Of a stretch of DNA of 34,914 nt, positions 5,592 through 32,158 are shown in pieces. The translations under genes were made by a program, and so were the position numbers. Every line of letters starts with the position of its first letter. Position 1 is the first letter of the stretch. The stretch comes from Deltaproteobacteria bacterium (GTDB taxonomy: Bacteria > Desulfobacterota > Binatia > DP-6): NCBI GenBank assembly GCA_005879795.1, contig VBKJ01000147.1:1-34914 (forward strand), in the 5' to 3' direction. The notes beneath the pieces are model-generated. The model was not told where the DNA came from. It did not search any database and worked only from the letters and a program-made list of their open reading frames with translations.

Positions 5592-7127
5592 TCAGGACCG
5601 CCCCTCCCTCCGCAGGCGCGCCGCGATCCGCTCGCGCAGCACGTGCTTCTGGACCTTGCCGCTCGCCGTCGCCGGCAGCGCGTCGACCAGCTCGAGCCGC
5701 TCGGGGAGCTTCCGCCGCGACAGCTCCAGTCCCTCGAGGAAGCGCACCAGCTCGGGAAGTGTCGGCGGATCCCGTTCGTCGGCCGGGACCACGAAGGCGC
5801 ACGCGCGCTCCCCGAGGCGGGCGTCCGGCATCGGCACGAGGGCCACGCTCCGCACCTTCGGGTGCTCGAAGAGGAGGTCCTCGACCTCCTTGGCGCTGAA
5901 CTTCTCGCCGCCGCGGACGATGATGTCCTTTACCCGGCCGGTGACGGTGAGGTAGCCGTCGGCGTCGAGGACGCCCAGGTCGCCGGTGCGGAAGAAGCGC
6001 CGCTCGTCGAACGCCTCCGCGTCGAGCCGCGCGTCGCGGTAGCCGAGGAACAGCTCGGGGCCGCGCGCCCAGATCTCGCCCTCGCGGCCGGTGGCCACGG
6101 CGCGCCCGCCGGCGTCACGCAGCTCGATCTCGCCCGGCGGGATCACGGCGCCGTCCGTCTCGGCGCGCTTCGCCTCCGGGACGTCGGGGCCTGCCGAGCT
6201 GGTGATGCTCGGAAACTCGGTCGAGCCGTAGCCCCGGCCCGAGCGCACCCCGAGGCGGCGGATCGCGCCCCGGATCAGGGCGGGCGGCACGTCGGCCCCG
6301 CCGCACGGAAAGAGCCGCAGCGAGCGGAGGTCGAAGCGGTCCAGGTGCGGCAGGTCGACGACGCCTTGGAGGAACGGCGTGGCGCCGGCCGAGAAGGTGC
6401 CCCGTTCGCGCTCGACGAGCGCGCAGAAGCGCTCGGGGTCCCATACCTCCATGAGGACGCTCGTCGCCCCGAGGACGGCGGGGAGGAGGATGCCGTAGAG
6501 GAGGCCCGAGATGTGGCTGACGGGCGACGGCATGACGAGGACGTCGTCGGCGCCGAGCCGGTGGTGGCCGATCGTGGCGTGGCACTCGGCGGTGAGCGTG
6601 GTCGCGCTGTGGAGGACGCCCTTCGGCTCCGCCGTGGTGCCCGAGGTGTAAAGGATGACCGCCACCCGGTTCGGGTCGGGCCCCTCGCCGCCCGGCCCGT
6701 CCGCCTGCGGCAGCGCCTCGAGCTCGTCGACGACGAGGACGTCCCGCAGCGAGGGCACGTCCGGCCGCACGCGCGCGACGAGCGCGGGGAAGTCGACGCC
6801 GCGGAAGCGGCCCGGGACCACGACGGCGGCGCTCTCGGCCTGGCGCAGGATGAAGCGGATCTCGCGCGCGCCATAGATCGGGACGATGGGGTTCAGGACT
6901 GCGCCGAGACGGTGCGCCGCGTGGAAGAGCACCGCCGCCTCGGCCCGGTTCGGGAGCACGGACGAAACGACCTCGCCCGGGCGGACGCCGCGTGCGGCGA
7001 GTCCCGCGGCGACCCGCTCGGCGAGCCGGCCGAGCTCGGCGTACGTGAGCCGCACGCGGTCGTCGACCAGCGCGGTCTTCTCCGCATGCGCGGCCGCGTG
7101 CCCACGGAGCGTCGCGGTGAAGGACAT
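5592..7127 (-). CDS. AMP-dependent acyl-CoA synthetase/ligase (ANL superfamily)
   Basis: The 511-residue protein starts at the ATG at 7125-7127, which overlaps the stop of the upstream acyl-CoA dehydrogenase by one base (TGATG). It has the ANL core motifs in order: YTSGTTAEPKGVLHS (P-loop, about 158-172), YGSTEFPSITS (A5), RTGDLGVLDADGYLTVTGR (A7, about 395-413), VKDIIVRGGEKFSAKEVEDLL (A8 hinge) and TASGKVQKHVLRE (A10, with the adenylating Lys). It would activate a carboxylic acid to its CoA thioester with ATP in the cytosol. It is the last gene of a six-gene operon with dehydrogenases, a CoA-transferase and a crotonase, so it probably starts the same pathway. The acid is unknown. The same frame stays open far upstream, but that part is antisense shadow of other genes. 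Confidence 0.93.
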   Translation of the reverse strand: MSFTATLRGHAAAHAEKTALVDDRVRLTYAELGRLAERVAAGLAARGVRPGEVVSSVLPNRAEAAVLFHAAHRLGAVLNPIVPIYGAREIRFILRQAESAAVVVPGRFRGVDFPALVARVRPDVPSLRDVLVVDELEALPQADGPGGEGPDPNRVAVILYTSGTTAEPKGVLHSATTLTAECHATIGHHRLGADDVLVMPSPVSHISGLLYGILLPAVLGATSVLMEVWDPERFCALVERERGTFSAGATPFLQGVVDLPHLDRFDLRSLRLFPCGGADVPPALIRGAIRRLGVRSGRGYGSTEFPSITSSAGPDVPEAKRAETDGAVIPPGEIELRDAGGRAVATGREGEIWARGPELFLGYRDARLDAEAFDERRFFRTGDLGVLDADGYLTVTGRVKDIIVRGGEKFSAKEVEDLLFEHPKVRSVALVPMPDARLGERACAFVVPADERDPPTLPELVRFLEGLELSRRKLPERLELVDALPATASGKVQKHVLRERIAARLRREGRS

Positions 7128-23964: not shown

Positions 23965-23985
23965 GAGCCGGGAGCTTCTCCCAGC

Positions 23986-24141
23986 GCGTTCGCGCGTGCC
24001 GTCGCGCTCGAAGCGTACGCTGGTCTCTACCGGCTCCGCATCGCCGGCGACTACCGCGTTGTGTGGCGCGTGGACGACACGGCGCGCACGGTGCTCGTGC
24101 TCCTGATCGGCCACCGCAAGGACGTGTACCGGAGGCTCTGA
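23986..24141 (+). pseudogene. RelE/ParE-type toxin C-terminal remnant
   Basis: The frame ending at TGA 24139-24141 reads [20 protein letters not shown] then [19 protein letters not shown]. This is the C-terminal half of RelE-family toxins (pattern GLYRLRxGDYRVxYxxDD...VLxVGHRxxVYR). No start codon or N-terminal half is present; upstream, in another frame, a few residues (LRAGSFS) resemble the preceding conserved P-x-G-S-x-x-L part. No antitoxin gene is visible. It sits in frame directly after the response-regulator stop. Confidence 0.7.
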
Positions 24142-24310
24142 CCGTGGTGCCCGTGCAGCGGGGTGTCTTGGGCATGTTGCGCGTGTGGCTTGCCAGTCCG
24201 CCCCATGCTGTCGCCGGCGTGCTGACGTTGCAGTCCTCGTCTACAGCCCACGCAGCGCGCCCGACCCATACCGACGCCGCGACGGCGCCTTGAAAGTTGC
24301 CGGCGGGCGG

Positions 24311-24520
24311 CTACTCGCATGTGAGTCCGCGTTCCTCCGCCCACCACCGCGGCACGCCGAGGCGCCCGACGTCGCCGTCGGCGGCCAGCGTGCAGTCCGG
24401 GTGCAGGATGACGACCGGGAGCGGCACGACCCGGCCCGCCACGACGCACATGAGCCGCATGTCCCGGGCCACCACGCGCGCGTCCTCGAACCATAGGTAA
24501 GCCCGTCTCCCCTCGGCCAT
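24311..24520 (-). CDS. Small conserved protein, copy A of a duplicated gene
   Basis: An ATG at 24518-24520 preceded by AAAGGAG gives 69 residues: YLWFEDARVVARDMRLMCVV near the start, then RVVPLPVVILHPDC and GDVGRLGVPRWWAEERGL. I do not recognise the family. It is short, with no signal peptide or membrane segment. A second copy at 27227-27520 is about 80% identical over 67 residues and its start codon is exactly 3,000 bp away. Both copies keep the ribosome site, the frame and about 140 bp of upstream sequence. Conservation of the frame suggests it is or was expressed. This copy lies outside the tRNA-Lys element. Confidence 0.6.
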   Translation of the reverse strand: MAEGRRAYLWFEDARVVARDMRLMCVVAGRVVPLPVVILHPDCTLAADGDVGRLGVPRWWAEERGLTCE

Positions 24521-24660
24521 GGGCAGTCTCCTTTGGAGTCCGCGCCTGGCACGCGTGGGGAGCGCCCTTTGCCACCGACCCCCTCGTCTCCCACGCCGCG
24601 CTGCGGGGCTTGTAACGGGCTTCGCTCCGGACAGTGGACCCTTCTGCGCAGCGCCGCAAG
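24327..24660. repeat. Dispersed duplicated module, copy A
   Basis: About 334 bp that recurs at 27327-27661 in the same orientation with roughly 85% identity by eye. It covers most of the small gene and about 140 bp upstream of it. The upstream part is at least as well conserved as the coding part; the exact block CTGCGGGGCTTGTAACGGGC occurs in both. No inverted ends or target duplications are seen. Confidence 0.75.
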
Positions 24661-24828
24661 TGCGTTCCGTAATTCGCGGTCATTCAAGGTGGCGTTATGC
24701 GACTTTGATTCTCACGCGGCACTTCGATGACCGGCCAGCACGCGGACTGCCTTGCCTTACCAGGTATGCTCTTTTCCCTTGCACCCCTGACCGCGACCGA
24801 GGATAAGTCCGTCATCGTCAGAGGGGGG

Positions 24829-25047
24829 ATGCGGACGGGGAATATGTCACTCCAGGAGTTCCACGACTTCGCGAACCTGACGCACGCGATCCTCTGGCGA
24901 GGGGTCGCCGCCGTCAGGCGCGCCCGATCGAGCATCGCGGACAGCCGGAGAGTCTGCGAGGAAACCCGGGAGCTGCTGGCGGCCCTGCATCAGCGGCGCA
25001 GGCGCCCTCGACGTCCCCCACCTTTGCGTGGCACGCTGACGGGGTAA
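24829..25047 (+). CDS. Hypothetical small protein
   Basis: A possible 72-residue product read from the ATG at 24829. An ATG at 24844 and a longer frame from 24727 are alternatives, and the purine-rich GAGGGGGG lies too close to the first. The middle, SLQEFHDFANLTHAILWRGV then AAVRRARSSIADSRRVCEETRELLAAL, looks like two amphipathic helices; the tail is Arg/Pro-rich. I do not recognise it. The frame looks more protein-like than its shadows, but support is weak. Confidence 0.3.
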   Translation: MRTGNMSLQEFHDFANLTHAILWRGVAAVRRARSSIADSRRVCEETRELLAALHQRRRRPRRPPPLRGTLTG

Positions 25048-25135
25048 ACACGTGGGGCTGCGTTGCGGCGACGCGCCCTCGCTGCAAAACTAGCGCACCG
25101 CCCGCGGCGGCGCCGCCCCCTGCCCAGCCACCCGC

Positions 25136-25330
25136 TCACGAGGCCAGGCGCCTACGAATGGCCGCCTCGCTGATACCCAGGAGCGCCCCCGCCTTCCGCA
25201 ACGAGCCGGTCGCCGCCAACGCCCGGCGCGCCTGGTCACCCCGCACGCGCCCCCGCCGGCCGAGCGGGAGGGCGGGACTGGCAGGGCAGAGCAGCGACGG
25301 TCGGGGACCATTCGAGCATAGGCCGAGCAC
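25136..25330 (-). CDS. Possible small Fis-type helix-turn-helix protein or fragment
   Basis: The 64-residue frame ends ARRALAATGSLRKAGALLGISEAAIRRRLAS. This resembles the Fis/HTH_8 DNA-binding unit found at the C-terminus of NtrC-type regulators (A-L-x-A-x-G-x-x-x-x-A-x-x-L-G-I-S). The first 30 residues are Pro/Arg-rich and look non-functional, and there is no ribosome site. It could be a remnant of a larger regulator or a small DNA-binding protein. It lies just upstream of, and antisense to, the tRNA-Lys region. Confidence 0.3.
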   Translation of the reverse strand: MLGLCSNGPRPSLLCPASPALPLGRRGRVRGDQARRALAATGSLRKAGALLGISEAAIRRRLAS

Positions 25331-25337
25331 AGGTTCC

Positions 25338-25366
25338 TTGCTCCGGCGCTCGCGGGCGGCTAAAAA
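25338..25366 (+). promoter_or_regulatory. Candidate tRNA-Lys promoter
   Basis: TTGCTC (25338-25343) and TAAAAA (25361-25366) are 17 bases apart, and the predicted start lies about 14 bases before the tRNA. The match to consensus is moderate, but position and spacing fit. Confidence 0.4.
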
Positions 25367-25386
25367 GGCCCGTCTTTTCCACGCCC

Positions 25387-25459
25387 GAGCCGTTAGCTCA
25401 GTCGGTAGAGCATCTGCCTTTTAAGCAGAGGGTCGCTGGTTCGATCCCAGCACGGCTCA
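25387..25459 (+). tRNA. tRNA-Lys (anticodon TTT)
   Basis: A full cloverleaf: acceptor GAGCCGT/ACGGCTC (25387-25393 and 25452-25458), discriminator A at 25459, D-arm AGCTCAGTCGGTAGAGC, anticodon stem TCTGC/GCAGA around loop CTTTTAA (anticodon TTT), and T-arm CTGGTTCGATCCCAG. CCA is not encoded. Its last 42 bases and two more are repeated exactly at 28571-28614, so the gene served as an integration site and was rebuilt intact at the left end of the inserted element. Confidence 0.97.
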
Positions 25460-25461
25460 CT
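25418..25461 (+). repeat. attL-like direct repeat inside tRNA-Lys
   Basis: 44 bp, from the anticodon loop through the tRNA 3' end plus two bases. It is identical to 28571-28614. Tyrosine integrases typically recombine within the anticodon loop or T-arm and leave this type of 3' duplication. Confidence 0.85.
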
Positions 25462-25950
25462 GATATTTCGGGCACTTAGCCACTGCTAGATCGCTAGGGT
25501 GTGCTTATCGCGCTTGCCGAGGGGACACGTGGCGGTCATGGAGTGTTCGCTTTCGTGCCCTCCTAGCAGAGGGCGCCGTTCTAGATAGCTTGTTTTAGCT
25601 AAACTGCTTGTGCCCCGCAAGGCGAAACAATCTGGCGGCCGACAGGGAGGTGACGGGGATGCACGAGGGCTCAGGCCGGGAACGCGCGCGGACCCGAGGG
25701 CGGCAATCGGCCTGTCCGCCCGTTGCCGGCCCCCGAGCCCCCTGCGTGCTCGTCAGGTAGTGGGTGGATAATACCGCGTTAGGGCGGGTGGAGCAAGGTA
25801 TCTAGGTTGACACGACCGATGGGATGCGATACAAGGGATGTTCCTGTTCTTGTCACCTCGGGCTGCGCTGGGGGGAATTGTCCCCGTAGCGTGGCCCGAG
25901 GTGTTTTGGAGCGTTGACCGCGCCATGGGGGGCGTGTAGCGGGAACGATC
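25462..25950. other. Gene-free left part of the element, with promoter
   Basis: No supported gene in 489 bp. A strong sigma-70-like promoter on the plus strand lies at 25807-25835: TTGACA, 17 bases, TACAAG. It points at the DUF2971 pseudogene whose ATG is at 25951. A 33-codon frame at 25660-25761, behind GGGAGGTG, looks random. Confidence 0.45.
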
Positions 25951-26858
25951 ATGACGGAAGGCGATGCGGGAGGAAGGCCGGCGCTCTTCTACAAGTACCG
26001 GACGGCCGCGCAGGCGCAAGAGATGCTTACCACGCGTGTGGTGTGGCGACCCTCGCCGATCGAGTTCAATGATCCCTTCGACACGCGTCACTTCTGGCGC
26101 TTCGGATTCGAGTTGGACGACACGGTACTCGCAGCCGTGACTGACCGGATCGCGCGGTTCATGCAGTGCGACGGCCCCTCCCTGAGAAGATGGGCGAGTG
26201 GTTGAAGCAAGAGGTGCGGGCGGGCCGCCAGCTGCGTGGCGAGGGACGGCTTGCCGAGGTGCCGTCCGTGAGGGAGCAGCTCAAGCCGGCCATCCCGCGG
26301 ATCGCGGCTGGACTGGAGGCGTTGCAGCGCGAGTGGAAAGAGGACCTTCCAAAGATACGCATCCTCTGCCTTAGCGGAGCCTGCGACAATCCAAGGATGT
26401 GGGTGCACTACGCCGATGATCACCGAGGCGCGGTGATCGGTTTCCAGGACATTCCGGGCAAGAACAGCGCCCTCTGCGGGGAATGCACCCGGTCACGTAC
26501 GAAGCAGACCCGCCGGCGCTCGCAGAGACCCCCGAAGACCTGGCCCTGCACATCACCGGCGAGGCGCCGATCGACGTGAGGGCGGCCTTGCACCGAGCTG
26601 TGTTCACGAAGGGTCTACGCTGGGAGCACGAACACGAATGGCGGTGGTGGACGATCGAGGACGGTGCCGAAGCGGAATGCCGTGTCCGCGTCAAGGATGA
26701 GGATTTTCGCCGCCGTCTACCTCGGCTGCCGCATGCCGGACGAAGACCGCGACGCGATCATGCGCATCGTCCGCGACGTGCTCCCGCACGTCCAGCTCTA
26801 TCAAGCCCGCCAGAGCAAGGTGGGGTTCGTGCTGGAGTTCGATCCGCTCACCGCGTAG
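25951..26858 (+). pseudogene. DUF2971 protein gene broken by three frameshifts
   Basis: Four successive frame segments join into one DUF2971-type protein of about 300 residues. The first (from 25951) reads ALFYKYRTAAQAQEML then PIEFNDPFDTRHF. The second (to about 26480) has CLSGACDNPRMWVHYADDHR followed by GAVIGF. The third (from about 26483) has VTYEADPP and WEHEHEWRWW. The fourth (to 26858) has FAAVYLGCRMPDEDRDAIMR. The characteristic order Y-K-Y-R, F-N-D-P-F-D, S-x-x-x-D-N-x-x-M-W-x-H-Y and E-x-E-W-R is clear. The breaks fall near 26175-26190, 26478 and 26708, each close to a run of C, G or T. The domain's function is unknown; it is often found in accessory genomic regions. Confidence 0.75.
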
Positions 26859-27144
26859 GCCGCGTGAAAGTAGCAAGGCGGAAAAGAGCCGACAAGAATC
26901 GGGACGGCAATCGGGACGGTCGTGGCTAAGTAGCCGATAATCACGAGCGGAGGGGGGAGATTCGAACCGCTGCGACGTGTCCGCTTGTGGCCGAGCGCGA
27001 GGCCTTACGAGCGTGAGACGGATGCGGATTATGCAGAGTTAGCTACGCGTACACAGCCATGTACACCACAATAGCCCTTGACAGCCCCATGACGCGGGGC
27101 GTAGGAGGGCGGGCAGTGCGGCTCGGGGAACGGCTGCGAAGGGG
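26859..27144. other. Intergenic segment of the element
   Basis: No supported gene. An 11-bp direct repeat AATCGGGACGG occurs at 26897-26907 and 26909-26919. A plus-strand TTGACA at 27078-27083, with TAGGAG 18 bases later, could be the promoter of the tiny frame starting at 27145. Confidence 0.35.
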
Positions 27145-27306
27145 ATGGGGGTGTTGCTGGTGCTCCTCACCGCGCTGGTGTGCGTGGTAGTCCTGGCCGT
27201 TGTCGGCCCAACCACCCGCCTACTGACTAGGCTACCACGCCACCTTCTAGGGATTCGCGCGAGAGCGCGTCCTCTCCTCCGGGGGCCGCCCAGCGCGCTA
27301 CGGTAG
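27145..27306 (+). CDS. Possible 53-residue single-pass membrane protein
   Basis: An ATG at 27145-27147 behind GCGAAGGGG starts MGVLLVLLTALVCVVVLAVV, a clean hydrophobic helix, then a short basic tail (TRLLTRLPRHLLGIRARARP). The TTGACA at 27078-27083 is positioned as a promoter. The frame ends at TAG 27304-27306 and overlaps the 3' part of the copy-B gene on the opposite strand. Small hydrophobic, basic peptides like this occur as type I toxins or phage-type membrane proteins, but no family is recognised. It could be chance in this GC-rich sequence. Confidence 0.3.
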   Translation: MGVLLVLLTALVCVVVLAVVGPTTRLLTRLPRHLLGIRARARPLLRGPPSALR

Positions 27307-27520
27307 GCCCGCCCGCGAGCAGAAGCCCGCGTTCCTCCGCCCACCATCGCGGCACCCCGAGGCGCCCGACGTCGCCGGCACCGGCCAGCCGGCAGTCGGG
27401 GTGCAGGATGACGACCGGGAGCGGGACGATGCGGCCCGCCACGACGCACAGGAGCCGCAAGCGCTCCTGCACCACGCGGGCGTCCTCGAACCACAGGTAG
27501 CCCCACCTGTCCTCCGCCAT
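27227..27520 (-). CDS. Small conserved protein, copy B of a duplicated gene
   Basis: The ATG at 27518-27520, with AAAAGGAG before it, gives 97 residues. The first 67 (YLWFEDARVVQERLRLLCVV, RIVPLPVVILHPDC, GDVGRLGVPRWWAEERGL) match copy A at about 80%. The last 30 residues differ because the copies lose homology just at the end of the shared part, so the tail here is probably read-through into unrelated DNA. Function unknown. This copy is inside the tRNA-Lys element while copy A is about 0.9 kb outside it. The retained frame and ribosome site argue for selection since duplication. Confidence 0.55.
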   Translation of the reverse strand: MAEDRWGYLWFEDARVVQERLRLLCVVAGRIVPLPVVILHPDCRLAGAGDVGRLGVPRWWAEERGLLLAGGPTVARWAAPGGEDALSRESLEGGVVA

Positions 27521-27661
27521 GGGCGCTCTCCTTTTGGAGTCCGCGCCTGGCACGCATGGGGAGCGCTCCTACCGCCGTCCCCCTCATCTCCCACGCCGCG
27601 CTGCGGGGCTTGTAACGGGCTTCGCTGCGGAGAAATAGACCCTTCTGCGAAGCGCCGCAAG
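27327..27661. repeat. Dispersed duplicated module, copy B
   Basis: Counterpart of 24327-24660 in the same orientation, with homology ending abruptly on both sides (near CCGCGTTCC on the left and GCGCCGCAAG on the right). Copy B lies within the element bounded by the tRNA-Lys repeats. Confidence 0.75.
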
Positions 27662-27760
27662 GGGGACGCTTTGAGGCACACTCGGACTTACGACAGCACC
27701 AACGGCGGTATTCGCGCTTGCGGCCGGCGAGTTGGAGGGACGCTTCATCAGATAGGACAC

Positions 27761-27781
27761 TTTTCCACAGACTGTGGAGAA
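27761..27781. promoter_or_regulatory. 21-bp dyad with DnaA-box-like arms
   Basis: Two 10-bp arms, TTTTCCACAG and CTGTGGAGAA, flank a central A with one mismatched pair. The left arm contains TTTTCCACA, which fits the DnaA-box consensus TTWTNCACA; the right arm, read in reverse (TTCTCCACA), differs at one position. It lies in the 465-bp gap between the copy-B gene and the zinc-ribbon gene. It may be an operator or a replication-linked site of the former element. Confidence 0.35.
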
Positions 27782-27985
27782 CCCGCCGCCACCCCTGATT
27801 CACGTGGCACTTCCAACCATCCAGCGGACAGCGAATGCACCGGAACACCGAGCCCAGCTCGCCAGATGCTGTCCTGGTTAGGCGCGGGGTGTCCTTAAAT
27901 TTTGGGGCTGGGTTATTGGTAATGGCGGCCCGCTAGGCTAATGCTGCTGAGCGTCGTCCACCAGCTCAACGGAAGGGAGGAGAGC

Positions 27986-28228
27986 ATGCTCTCGGAGACG
28001 CTACCTTTGGTGCGCTGCAAGAAGTGCGGGATCGGCACGATGCTGCCGCTCTCGGACTACGGGCAGGACGGCGCCGCGATCCTCTACAAGGCATGGGTCT
28101 GCGACAGTCCGACCTGCGGCTACAACCTCCGCATCGATCGGGGCCAGGTGACCTACGGCGACTTGCCCCAGCCGAAGTCGGCGCAGGAGCCCCGCCACGG
28201 GACTCTTGTTGCCAGGGCAGTTCGTTAG
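27986..28228 (+). CDS. Small zinc-ribbon-like protein
   Basis: The ATG at 27986, with AAGGGAGGAG before it, is preferred over an in-frame TTG/ATG-like start near 27941. The 80-residue product has C-x-x-C in LVRCKKCGIGTMLP and C-x-x-x-x-C in WVCDSPTCGYNLRID, a four-Cys arrangement typical of a zinc ribbon, with a hydrophilic C-terminus. No family is recognised beyond that. Such small proteins can bind DNA or RNA or chaperone a partner. It is the best-looking intact gene inside the tRNA-Lys element. Confidence 0.55.
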   Translation: MLSETLPLVRCKKCGIGTMLPLSDYGQDGAAILYKAWVCDSPTCGYNLRIDRGQVTYGDLPQPKSAQEPRHGTLVARAVR

Positions 28229-28245
28229 CTAGCTAAGATGCCCTA

Positions 28246-28427
28246 ATGACCGAGAAGCGCGAAGGGTCGAGCGACGTCCCCCGCGCGGACGAGACCGATC
28301 GCCGCGACGCCGGTCCGCGACCACGACGAACTCGAACACGATCGCGGACATGCTGGACAAGTTCGTGAAGCTCTCTCCCGCGTTCCGCTGGGTGTGGCAG
28401 GCCGCAAAGCCCCACCTCGGCCTGTAG
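28246..28427 (+). pseudogene. Short frameshifted gene at the right end of the element
   Basis: An ATG at 28246, 18 bases after the zinc-ribbon stop, opens MTEKREGSSDVPRADETDRR, and the sequence continues sensibly in another frame as NTIADMLDKFVKLSPAFRWV then WQAAKPHLGL before TAG 28425-28427. The second part looks like an amphipathic helix. One frameshift near 28315-28325 would join them into about 60 residues. Not a known family; could be coincidence. Confidence 0.25.
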
Positions 28428-28570
28428 ACTCGACGGCAGGGGGGGTGTGCTAGGGGTGTGCTGACCAGGCTCCCATCGGCACCCATCGGCTGCTCGGGTG
28501 TGAGCACGAAAAGCCAGGCATTCCGGGCAATCGGTGGGGAGCGATGGGAGGCGAGATCCTACGCGCGCCA

Positions 28571-28614
28571 CTTTTAAGCAGAGGGTCGCTGGTTCGATCC
28601 CAGCACGGCTCACT
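28571..28614 (+). repeat. attR-like partial tRNA-Lys duplicate
   Basis: An exact 44-bp copy of 25418-25461. The bases before it do not continue the tRNA (no 5' half, no D-arm), so this is a 3' remnant and not a second tRNA gene. It marks the right end of the integrated element. Confidence 0.85.
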
Positions 28615-28973: not shown

Positions 28974-30443
28974 TCAGCTCGAGCTGCGCAGCGTCATCAG
29001 ATCGTGCCGCAGCTGATCGGCCGTGTTCTTCATGCCATCGAGCGCGTCGCCGGGAATCTGGTTCTGTGCCCGGCGCGAGCGCAGGCGGCCCTTGAACTTG
29101 CCGACCGACCGGCTCGCTCCTCCGAGCATCGACTTCTCACGACGCTTCTTCCCATTCGCGAGGGCCTGCTGGGCCTGCCCGGTCTGTGTCTTGGCCCTCG
29201 TGAGGATCCTGCCCAACCCGTCGCGCAGCGCGCCCGGGCCGACGGCCGTCTGCACGGTCTGGATCAATTCGTCGAGCCGACAATCGATGGATGGGAAGGT
29301 GGGGGTCTTCGGGCAACCCGGGGCCGTTCCACCGAGCTCGTATGCGCCGATATCGCACGTGGCGACGCCATCGTCGTTGCCATCCACCGGACGGGGAAAG
29401 CCGCGCTGGTCGGTGGCAGGCGGCGGACAGTCGCTGCCGCCCGCGTCGATCGCAGGGCTGCCTGGCAAAAGTGCGTGGGTCGGGGTGGGGCCACCGTTGT
29501 CCTGCAGCGGACCGAGCTGCGGGTCCATGCCGACGAGGTCCCCGGCACCCGCAAAGCCGCAGGTGTTGCCGCTGTCCAGGTTGTGCCCCTGGGAAGTCGA
29601 GGTGCCGCTGCCGGCACAGTTGTCCCCGGAAGGACTGTTCGCGACGATCACGTAGCCGAACGTAGCATCGCCGACGTTGTAGAAGCCGCCACCCATGCCC
29701 GGGGAGGCGCTGTTGTCCGCGATGGTGACGTTGGTCAACACGGCCATCGCACCGAAGGAGTCGTCGTTGGCGATGCCCCCGCCAGCATTCGCCGTATTTC
29801 CACTCACCGTGACATTTTCCAGCGTGGCCGTCGCCGGATTGTCGATGCCCCCGCCGAAGTTGGCGGCAGTGTTCCCGCTCACGACGCAGTTGGTCAGGGT
29901 GATGTCATTGTCATTTGAGATGCCGCCACCGCTGGCTGCTGCGGTATTGTTGGCGACGACCACGTTCCTCAACGTGAGCGTGCTGCTGTTGTAGAGGCCG
30001 CCCCCAAACCCATTGTCCCCCGGTCCGGGGTTCCCGTTCCGAATGGTCAGATCAGAGATCGCAACCAGCGACGCCGAGATGTCGAAAATGCGGTCGATCC
30101 CGTTCCCATCGAGGATCGTGCTGTCGGCGCCGGCGCCGGTGATGGTGACATCATCGGTGATGTCGAGGTCGCCGGTCGCGGCGACGTCCTCGCCCTGGCC
30201 GGCGATCCTCAGCAGGTAGGTGCCGGCCGGGACCATGATCGTATCGGCGCCGGCATGGGCGTTTGCCTCCTGGATCGCAGCGCGCAGGGTGCAGGTGGCG
30301 CCTGCGGTGGCACACTTGCCGTCACCGGGCGCCGCATCGACGGCGTCCGTGGTGTCGTTGACCGTGAATGTCGCCGCGGCCGCGGGAGCGACCGCGAGCA
30401 ACAGCGCGGCTACGCCGAGAAGGAAGCGGCTAACGGGAGCCAT
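28974..30443 (-). CDS. Secreted CSLREA-type beta-helix protein with basic helical tail
   Basis: The 489-residue protein has a signal peptide (MAPVSRFLLGVAALLLAVAPAAA), then the CSLREA-type domain (TFTVNDTTDAVD, KCATAGATCTLRAAIQEANA, about 24-62). A right-handed parallel beta-helix region follows, with repeated GGGI/GGGL-N and L-x-N-V-x-x-x-x-N units (about 95-270), then DNGGPTPTHALLPGSPAIDAG and ATDQRGFPRPVDG, the usual end of this fold. The last about 100 residues are different: a helical, Lys/Arg-rich domain (TQTGQAQQALANGKKRREKS). Exported, probably surface or extracellular; ligand unknown. The region before the ATG is C-rich with no Shine-Dalgarno; a TTGACA lies at 30484-30489. It is a paralogue of the gene at 30569. 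Confidence 0.88.
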   Translation of the reverse strand: MAPVSRFLLGVAALLLAVAPAAAATFTVNDTTDAVDAAPGDGKCATAGATCTLRAAIQEANAHAGADTIMVPAGTYLLRIAGQGEDVAATGDLDITDDVTITGAGADSTILDGNGIDRIFDISASLVAISDLTIRNGNPGPGDNGFGGGLYNSSTLTLRNVVVANNTAAASGGGISNDNDITLTNCVVSGNTAANFGGGIDNPATATLENVTVSGNTANAGGGIANDDSFGAMAVLTNVTIADNSASPGMGGGFYNVGDATFGYVIVANSPSGDNCAGSGTSTSQGHNLDSGNTCGFAGAGDLVGMDPQLGPLQDNGGPTPTHALLPGSPAIDAGGSDCPPPATDQRGFPRPVDGNDDGVATCDIGAYELGGTAPGCPKTPTFPSIDCRLDELIQTVQTAVGPGALRDGLGRILTRAKTQTGQAQQALANGKKRREKSMLGGASRSVGKFKGRLRSRRAQNQIPGDALDGMKNTADQLRHDLMTLRSSS

Positions 30444-30568
30444 GGAGGGGGAGGCGAAGACGAATGCCCGGTACGCGGGCGGCTGTCAAGACTGTCCGAG
30501 AGGAGGGGGGCTGCCTGCAACTGCGCCGTCGTTTCAGGCGGCGCAGATCTCACAGTGCACGGGCCGCC

Positions 30569-32158
30569 TCATGGTGGGCACGAGAATGGGAGGCACGAGA
30601 AGTTGCAGCTGATCAGTTCCACGGAGCACTGGGCCATTCTCAGTGCGTCACCGATGTTACAACCGCCGTCCCGGTTGACGTCGCAGACCTGGGGGTGACC
30701 GAAGGGCGCTAGGCCGCACGTGCGCAGATCGACGGTATACTGGGCTATGACGAGCGCGTCACCGATGTTCACCACGCCGTCCCCGTTCACGTCGCCGCAC
30801 AAGAGCGTGGTGGTCGTGGTGCTGGTCGTGGACGTCGTGCTCGTGGTGGTGGTCGGCGGCCGCGTGGTCGTCGTCGAGCTGGTCGTGGTCGACGTGGTGG
30901 TGGTGGGGAACGGGTCGGTCGACCGGTGCTCGAACGCACCGATATCGCACCGGCCGCCCGAGGGCTGCGGGCGGGATACGCTGCGCTGATCCGTCGAGGG
31001 GGGCGGACAGTCGGTACCGCCGGCGTTGATTGCCGGGCTGCCCATGACGAGGGCCTGCGTCTGGGTGGGACCGCCGTTGCTTGCGAGCGGGGCGATCCCG
31101 GGGTCGGTGTTGCTGAGATCGCCGGTGCCCGTCAGGCCACAGCTGGTGCCGACGTCGATATTGTGCCCGCCCGACGTGAACATCGTCGGATCGAAGGTCA
31201 AGTTCATGCAAGTCTCGCTCGCCGGGTCGTGCTCGAAGATGGTGTACTTGAAGGTCGCGTCCCCGAGATTGACGAAGCCCCCGCCCCCCGGCGTAGCGAT
31301 GTTGTTGCTGATGGTGACGTTGACGAGCGTCGCGGTGCCACTGTTGTGCTGCATTCCGGCGCCGGAGTCGGCACTGTTGTCGGATATCGTCACGTTGGTG
31401 AGATTCACATCGAAGTCACTCTCGAGCCCACCGCCCCCGGTCGCCGAGTTGCCGCTCAGCGTTACACGGTTCAGGGTGGCGACGCCGCCGGTCGAGTTGG
31501 AGATACCTCCGCCGGAACACGAGGTTCCAGCGCAGGTGTTGTTGCTCACCGTGACGTCCGTGAGCGACAGGATATCGGTGTTCGCGATTCCGCCACCAGA
31601 GACGCCGCCCGTGTTCTGTGTCACGACGACGTTGCTCAGGTTCAGGGTGACGGTGTCGTTGGCAGCGATAGCGCCTGTTCGGATGCCGCCGCCTTCCGCA
31701 ACTCCGGGGTTGCCGTTGCGAATCGTGACCCCCGAGATATTGACGGTGCCGTTGAAGTCGATGTCGAACACGCGATCGAGCCCGTTTCCGTCGATGATCA
31801 CGCTGCTCGCCCCGGCGCCCGTTATGTTGACCGCATCCGTGATGTCGAGATCGCCGGTCGCGGCATGGTTCTCGTTCCGGCCGGAGATGGTGAGCTTGTA
31901 GACGCCGCCTGTAGGCAGGCTGATCGTGTCGGCGCCGTTGTGCGCGTTCGACTCCTGGATGGCCGCGCGCAAGGTGCAGGCCCCGGCAGCGGTCCGGCAC
32001 ACGTTGTCGCCGATGTTCGCGTCAACCGCGTCGGCCGTGCTGTTCACGGTGTAGGTCGATGGCGCCGCCCAGGCCGGGACGCCGCCGCCCAGGAGCCAGG
32101 CGGCGCCGACGAAAACGGGGAGGAGCTTCGGTACCCGTCGCCGTCTGTGCTGTGTCAT
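30569..32158 (-). CDS. Secreted CSLREA-type beta-helix protein with Thr linker and dockerin-like tail
   Basis: The 529-residue protein has a long basic signal peptide (RRRRVPKLLPVFVGAAWLLG), then a CSLREA-type domain (STYTVNSTADAVDAN, VCRTAAGACTLRAAIQESNA, about 34-73) and a parallel beta-helix region with GGGI/GGGL repeats up to about 350. It ends the shared part with NGGPTQTQALVMGSPAINAG. A Thr/Ser/Pro linker (about 415-450) leads to two dockerin-like calcium loops: CGDVNGDGVVNIGDALVIAQ and CDVNRDGGCNIGDALRMAQC. Dockerins bind cohesins, but none is visible here. Extracellular; perhaps adhesive or glycan-binding. It precedes the paralogue at 28974 by 125 bases on the same strand. Confidence 0.9.
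   Translation of the reverse strand: MTQHRRRRVPKLLPVFVGAAWLLGGGVPAWAAPSTYTVNSTADAVDANIGDNVCRTAAGACTLRAAIQESNAHNGADTISLPTGGVYKLTISGRNENHAATGDLDITDAVNITGAGASSVIIDGNGLDRVFDIDFNGTVNISGVTIRNGNPGVAEGGGIRTGAIAANDTVTLNLSNVVVTQNTGGVSGGGIANTDILSLTDVTVSNNTCAGTSCSGGGISNSTGGVATLNRVTLSGNSATGGGGLESDFDVNLTNVTISDNSADSGAGMQHNSGTATLVNVTISNNIATPGGGGFVNLGDATFKYTIFEHDPASETCMNLTFDPTMFTSGGHNIDVGTSCGLTGTGDLSNTDPGIAPLASNGGPTQTQALVMGSPAINAGGTDCPPPSTDQRSVSRPQPSGGRCDIGAFEHRSTDPFPTTTTSTTTSSTTTTRPPTTTTSTTSTTSTTTTTLLCGDVNGDGVVNIGDALVIAQYTVDLRTCGLAPFGHPQVCDVNRDGGCNIGDALRMAQCSVELISCNFSCLPFSCPP
30806..30909 (-). repeat. Low-complexity Thr/Ser-rich coding repeat
   Basis: Imperfect ACC/ACG/AGC triplets encode the runs TTTTSTTTSSTTTTRPPTTT and TTSTTSTTSTTTTT. 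It forms the flexible, probably glycosylated linker between the beta-helix and the dockerin-like module. Its length is likely to vary between strains through slippage. Confidence 0.8.

Follow-up and report, generated by a model that had tools for sequence, protein, structure and literature searches.

A tRNA-Lys gene with a displaced 3' end

The window, 34,914 bp long, is the entire contig C147 of a 4.1-Mb assembly (G000; 280 contigs, 3.9% contamination). On its plus strand lies an intact tRNA-Lys(TTT) gene (25387..25460), called by ARAGORN and matched by Rfam model RF00005 at 74.7 bits, which would be the regenerated target gene of an integration event. The 3' part of this gene, together with one base beyond it, forms a 44-bp attL-side repeat copy (25418..25461, plus strand) that begins at tRNA position C32, the start of the anticodon loop. 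A displaced copy on the attR side (28571..28614, plus strand) is identical at 44 of 44 positions, lies in the same orientation and is offset by 3,153 bp. A perfect 44-mer repeat of this kind is far beyond chance. Both the intact tRNA and the exact repeat had been read from the sequence in the initial annotation, and both stand; a genome search, which that annotation had proposed, found no third copy, the next-best match being a different tRNA-Lys gene on contig C127 (84%). Nor is the second copy part of a second tRNA gene, which would have spoken against integration, since it is without a 5' half and no tRNA was called there. The tRNA-Lys 3' half had no match in viral contigs.

The insert thus lies between an intact tRNA and a displaced fragment of its end, both oriented alike. 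Two other features adjoin the locus. Compared with the related genome G005, the stretch upstream of the tRNA (23965-25386) has about 1.2 kb of additional sequence and forms a second variable region, located 5' of the tRNA. Immediately beyond the far repeat (28974-32158) are two adjacent CSLREA/choice-of-anchor Q proteins.

Contents and ends of the insert

The insert itself (25462..28570) has a G+C content of 65.1%, against 70.3% for the contig, which counts for an origin as an integrated element. It is free of any integrase gene: all 11 PF00589 matches of the assembly are on other contigs, and searching the integrases and integrase remnants of relatives against the insert gave no match. The absence of an integrase, noted from the start, is therefore confirmed.

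The sole identifiable cargo gene is a member of the DUF2971 family (25951..26858, plus strand), described initially as broken. The series of reading frames here proved to be one gene in four frame pieces, separated by three frameshifts near 26175 (CCCC/CCC), 26480 (GGGG) and 26705 (TTTT), all of them short homopolymers; no in-frame stops occur within the pieces. Read through, the translation matches Pfam PF11185 (E=7.9e-6; 27.6 bits, cut-off 22) and the PADLOC model PDC-S31 (E=1.3e-40), of which it covers residues 11-296 of 301. The match extends over nearly the full length of the model, and the copy differs from an ordinary family member by being broken. The PDC-S31 family is a computationally proposed anti-phage candidate. 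Sequencing error was considered as a source of the frameshifts, but the long genes in the rest of the contig are uninterrupted, making real decay more likely, and from the homopolymer frameshifts and stop-free pieces this decay looks recent.

The right half of the insert holds two small genes. One, without family assignment (27227..27553, minus strand; 108 aa), is paralogous to a gene at 24311-24520, in the variable region upstream of the tRNA, and has a further paralogue on contig C15. The duplication noted initially is real: 24324-24660, outside the insert, and 27324-27662, inside it, form a direct repeat that is 86% identical with a spacing of 3,000 bp. The repeat overlaps a module (27319..28347) common to two other contigs of the same assembly, C15 (27319-27862, 83%) and C129 (27750-28347, 78%). 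A 44-bp core of this module (27811-27854) is found also at C15:6793-6836 and C129:111615-111658; in a search of 36 genomes these three places, all in the host genome, were the only ones, and the core was absent from the 35 relatives.

Within the module is a zinc-ribbon gene (27986..28228, plus strand), starting at the ATG at 27986 and present as the initial annotation had it. It is related, as a divergent paralogue, to a gene that 36 of 38 genomes contain and that is represented in the host genome by an orthologue on contig C213; the product of the zinc-ribbon gene had no match in NCBIfam or PADLOC. Over 27986-28163, 175 of 178 coding bases equal those of the C129 copy (L034), and the three differences are all third-position changes; in the flanks, identity drops to about 40-85%. 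With near-identical coding bases inside diverged flanks, gene conversion is the simplest reading and a likely one.

Could the locus be an artefact, a metagenome bin having fused two strains at the tRNA repeat? The draft state and contamination of the assembly, and the fact that the window is a whole contig, would allow it. However, a repeat of 44 bp is short to cause a mis-join, other contigs of the bin contain relatives of the insert's right half, and synteny upstream of the tRNA with members of the family is intact, so that such a fusion appears most improbable.

Two regulatory features proposed for the insert fared less well. No sigma-70-like promoter was found in it, which weakens the case for a promoter. 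The DnaA-box-like dyad, TTTTCCACAGACTGTGGAGAA, does hold one 9-mer match, which is kept on C15 and changed on C129; a single match, altered in one of its copies, makes no case for an origin, and that idea was rejected.

At the ends of the insert are repeated motifs that may be integrase arm sites. On its two strands together the contig has six copies of the heptamer GGGTGTG, of which five are on the same strand within less than 200 bp of the insert ends: one on the left arm at 25497, within GGGTGTGCT (25497..25505, plus strand), and four on the right arm (28390..28502, plus strand), at 28390, 28443, 28454 and 28496. When the two end zones were shuffled 5,000 times, a shared 7-mer this frequent arose only 3 times, but 27 of 430 zone pairs elsewhere in the contig had one, and with so many other pairs equally rich, the test alone is only suggestive. 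Two intact elements that occupy this tRNA in relatives served as positive controls: the one in G025 is flanked internally by TTTTGACAGCC-type repeats at its two ends, and the one in G027 has AAGTAAGCAA repeats, likewise at both ends. If the heptamers are arm sites, both attP arms would survive and the deletion would have been internal. The tandem end motif has no second occurrence elsewhere in the host genome, and hence the assembly contains no sibling element that shares these arms.

The same site in related genomes

A search of 38 relatives revealed that other families, too, have displaced tRNA-Lys ends close to the gene, and 72 usable tRNA-Lys(TTT) loci of the same bacterial class were then compared. 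A repeated 3' part lies downstream of the gene at six of them, the window and five others, a count to be read with the knowledge that G012, G025, G027 and G037, as well as G001, were picked because a repeat had already been seen, that the rest were not, and that among the 72 are loci with only a short downstream sequence and loci from a genome already represented by another stretch. The repeat distances are 3,153 bp in the window (44/44), 2,738 bp in G037 (43/44), 2,878 bp in G012 (42/44), 7,967 bp in G025 (42/44), 9,585 bp in G027 (43/44) and 9,262 bp in G052, where the left end has diverged (40/44). The arrangement is the opposite in G001, in which a 5' part (44/46) lies 10.3 kb upstream, likewise ending in the anticodon loop. 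The remaining loci have no tRNA-Lys repeat, and in many of these tRNA-Glu(TTC) is the next gene, less than 100 bp away.

In five of the six loci (the window, G012, G025, G027 and G037) the displaced fragment begins at C32. For G027 an empty site gives direct proof of integration: its left flank, displaced copy and right flank are contiguous in the same-genus genome G071 (L026 1483-1714 and 11248-14501 aligned to L186 1296-4624). This comparison covers the element of G027; the genus of the insert studied here is represented by its own genome alone in the sample. From the recurring boundary and the empty site, tRNA-Lys(TTT) emerges as a hotspot for tyrosine-integrase elements, with the putative crossover in the 7-nt anticodon loop CTTTTAA (25418-25424, plus strand). 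Site-specific integration at the tRNA, which the initial annotation had put forward, is therefore well supported, in part by the empty site of another occupant. For the window itself, members of the family do not agree in what follows the tRNA, and the ancestral junction is consequently not inferable.

The mechanism is a common one. Among 3,919 islands in the Islander catalogue, 2,083, or about half, are anticodon-centred and 3,760 have a 3' fragment, the 5'-fragment type being rare (159/3,919) (PMC4383910).

Might the second copy have arisen without integration, as a fragment left behind when the tRNA region was duplicated or rearranged, perhaps by way of the 340-bp repeats at 24324-24660 and 27324-27662? 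These direct repeats do flank the tRNA at a nearly equal spacing. On the other hand, the spacings differ (3,000 versus 3,153 bp), the similarity ends at 24660/27662 and never reaches the tRNA, the small-gene module is found elsewhere in the genome too, and the fragment starts at the very base where the displaced fragments of integrated elements start in four other lineages. Such an origin is thus very unlikely, and tandem duplication through the 340-bp repeats, largely refuted by the common C32 boundary, was rejected.

The occupants of the site are diverse. The G025 element (L027 1582-9622) is an 8-kb defence island that encodes two tyrosine recombinases along with a type IIG restriction enzyme-methyltransferase. 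The 9.6-kb element of G027 (L026 1632-11290), which encodes an integrase, a terminase, a portal protein and a head maturation protease, is satellite-like and has head and packaging genes. The G001 element (L028 2703-2748 and 12970-13049; about 10.3 kb) uses the same anticodon loop in the opposite sense, the 5' half being left upstream and the full tRNA lying at the far end, and contains terminase and integrase genes. In G012, the tRNA-Lys (L025 2930-3004) and its displaced copy (5839-5882) differ by a compensatory T-stem pair (GAAGG..CCTTC versus GTAGG..CCTAC), and the element thus seems to have brought a different 3' half. The broken DUF2971 gene is in keeping with such company: a defence cargo fits the site, given the restriction enzyme of G025, and the terminase, portal and head-protease genes of G027 are other cargo found there.

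The integrases at the site form a decay series, from intact to truncated to none. Intact integrases are found beside the tRNA in G025, beside the far copy in G027 and beside the tRNA of G001. In G012, only a truncated integrase, related to that of G025, is left adjoining the tRNA. An integrase fragment with two stops lies near, and probably just outside, the far copy in G052, and G037 and the insert described here have none. Apart from the integrase C-terminus common to G012 and G025, no cross-matches were detected between inserts of different lineages. A common family of mini-elements is not supported, as the inserts of the window, G012 and G037, integrase-less or nearly so, have no genes in common. 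A degenerate integrase was also seen on contig C42 of the host genome (L247 4379-5475), beside tRNA-Glu(TTC), with 50-76% identity in pieces to the tRNA-Lys integrase of G001.

Origin and fate of the insert

How did the insert arise? Very probably, it is an internally deleted, integrase-less remnant of an integration at tRNA-Lys, similar to a CIME and presumably immobile on its own. A temperate element would have entered tRNA-Lys(TTT) by means of a tyrosine integrase, with crossover in the 7-nt anticodon loop; a phage satellite or a defence island is the likeliest kind. The element would have provided a new 3' end for the tRNA, the original one being displaced to its far side. A later internal deletion would have taken the integrase and most of the element, the surviving candidate defence gene would then have gained its three frameshifts, and the end state would be an integrase-less remnant between attL and attR. 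The use of C32 in four other lineages with unrelated inserts supports this history, and the location of all integrase matches on other contigs, together with the decay series, fits deletion of the element's former integrase. Besides the single genome sampled for the genus and the varying sequence downstream of the tRNA, one point counts against it: the 44-bp copies are still identical, suggesting that integration or exchange was recent, in which case the integrase was either lost quickly or absent from the start.

The initial annotation had left the choice between a deletion remnant and a minimal satellite, the latter being a non-autonomous element that keeps both attachment ends and uses the integrase of another element to integrate and excise. 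Both ends do look complete, with the exact 44-bp repeat and GGGTGTG near each, as the intact elements of G025 and G027 also have repeated motifs at both ends, and the host genome encodes tyrosine integrases beside other tRNAs, namely tRNA-Asn (C5) and tRNA-Ala (C156). However, neither the repeat nor the tandem end motif has a further copy in the genome, no integrase is found at tRNA-Lys in the assembly (a check that had been suggested), the three integrase-less inserts at the site have no common content, unlike a satellite family, and the cargo gene is a pseudogene. The remnant half of the earlier proposal is favoured by the staged loss of integrases in relatives and by the decayed cargo, and the satellite half, for which no positive evidence was obtained, is unlikely. 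Unlikely, too, is that the insert is still excisable, with a functional attachment core and functional arm sites at both ends, and open to mobilisation in trans by a newly arriving tRNA-Lys-type integrase; if so, it would be a minimal non-autonomous carrier of defence genes.

Among known systems, phage satellites (PICI and P4-like) have an integrase and regulator, replication or packaging genes, which the insert does not match. No satellite-type domains or PHROGs were found in the tested reading frames (the zinc-ribbon gene was outside the PHROG search), the only PHROG match being that of a DUF2971 piece to phrog_1762, of unknown function. The nearest likeness is to a CIME (cis-mobilizable element), a decayed derivative of an integrated element (PMC5704250). 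Like a CIME, the insert keeps attL and attR and has lost the integration genes, and no transfer or conjugation genes were recognised in it. It differs in that its parent is not shown to have been conjugative, the neighbours at the site being of phage-satellite or defence type, and in that no tandem partner or cis mobilisation is seen. It also resembles the Islander islands in its intact tRNA, same-orientation displaced 3' fragment, anticodon-loop class and size above 2 kb (PMC4383910), but would fail the integrase filter, and such remnants are therefore missing from that catalogue.

The result is helpful for annotation and conceptually not new; decay of this kind is nothing unusual, and the site is occupied in related bacteria as well. 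The insert illustrates how elements decay to integrase-less stubs, which are discarded by island finders that require an integrase, at a single tRNA-Lys gene where satellites and defence islands have landed repeatedly in several families of one class.
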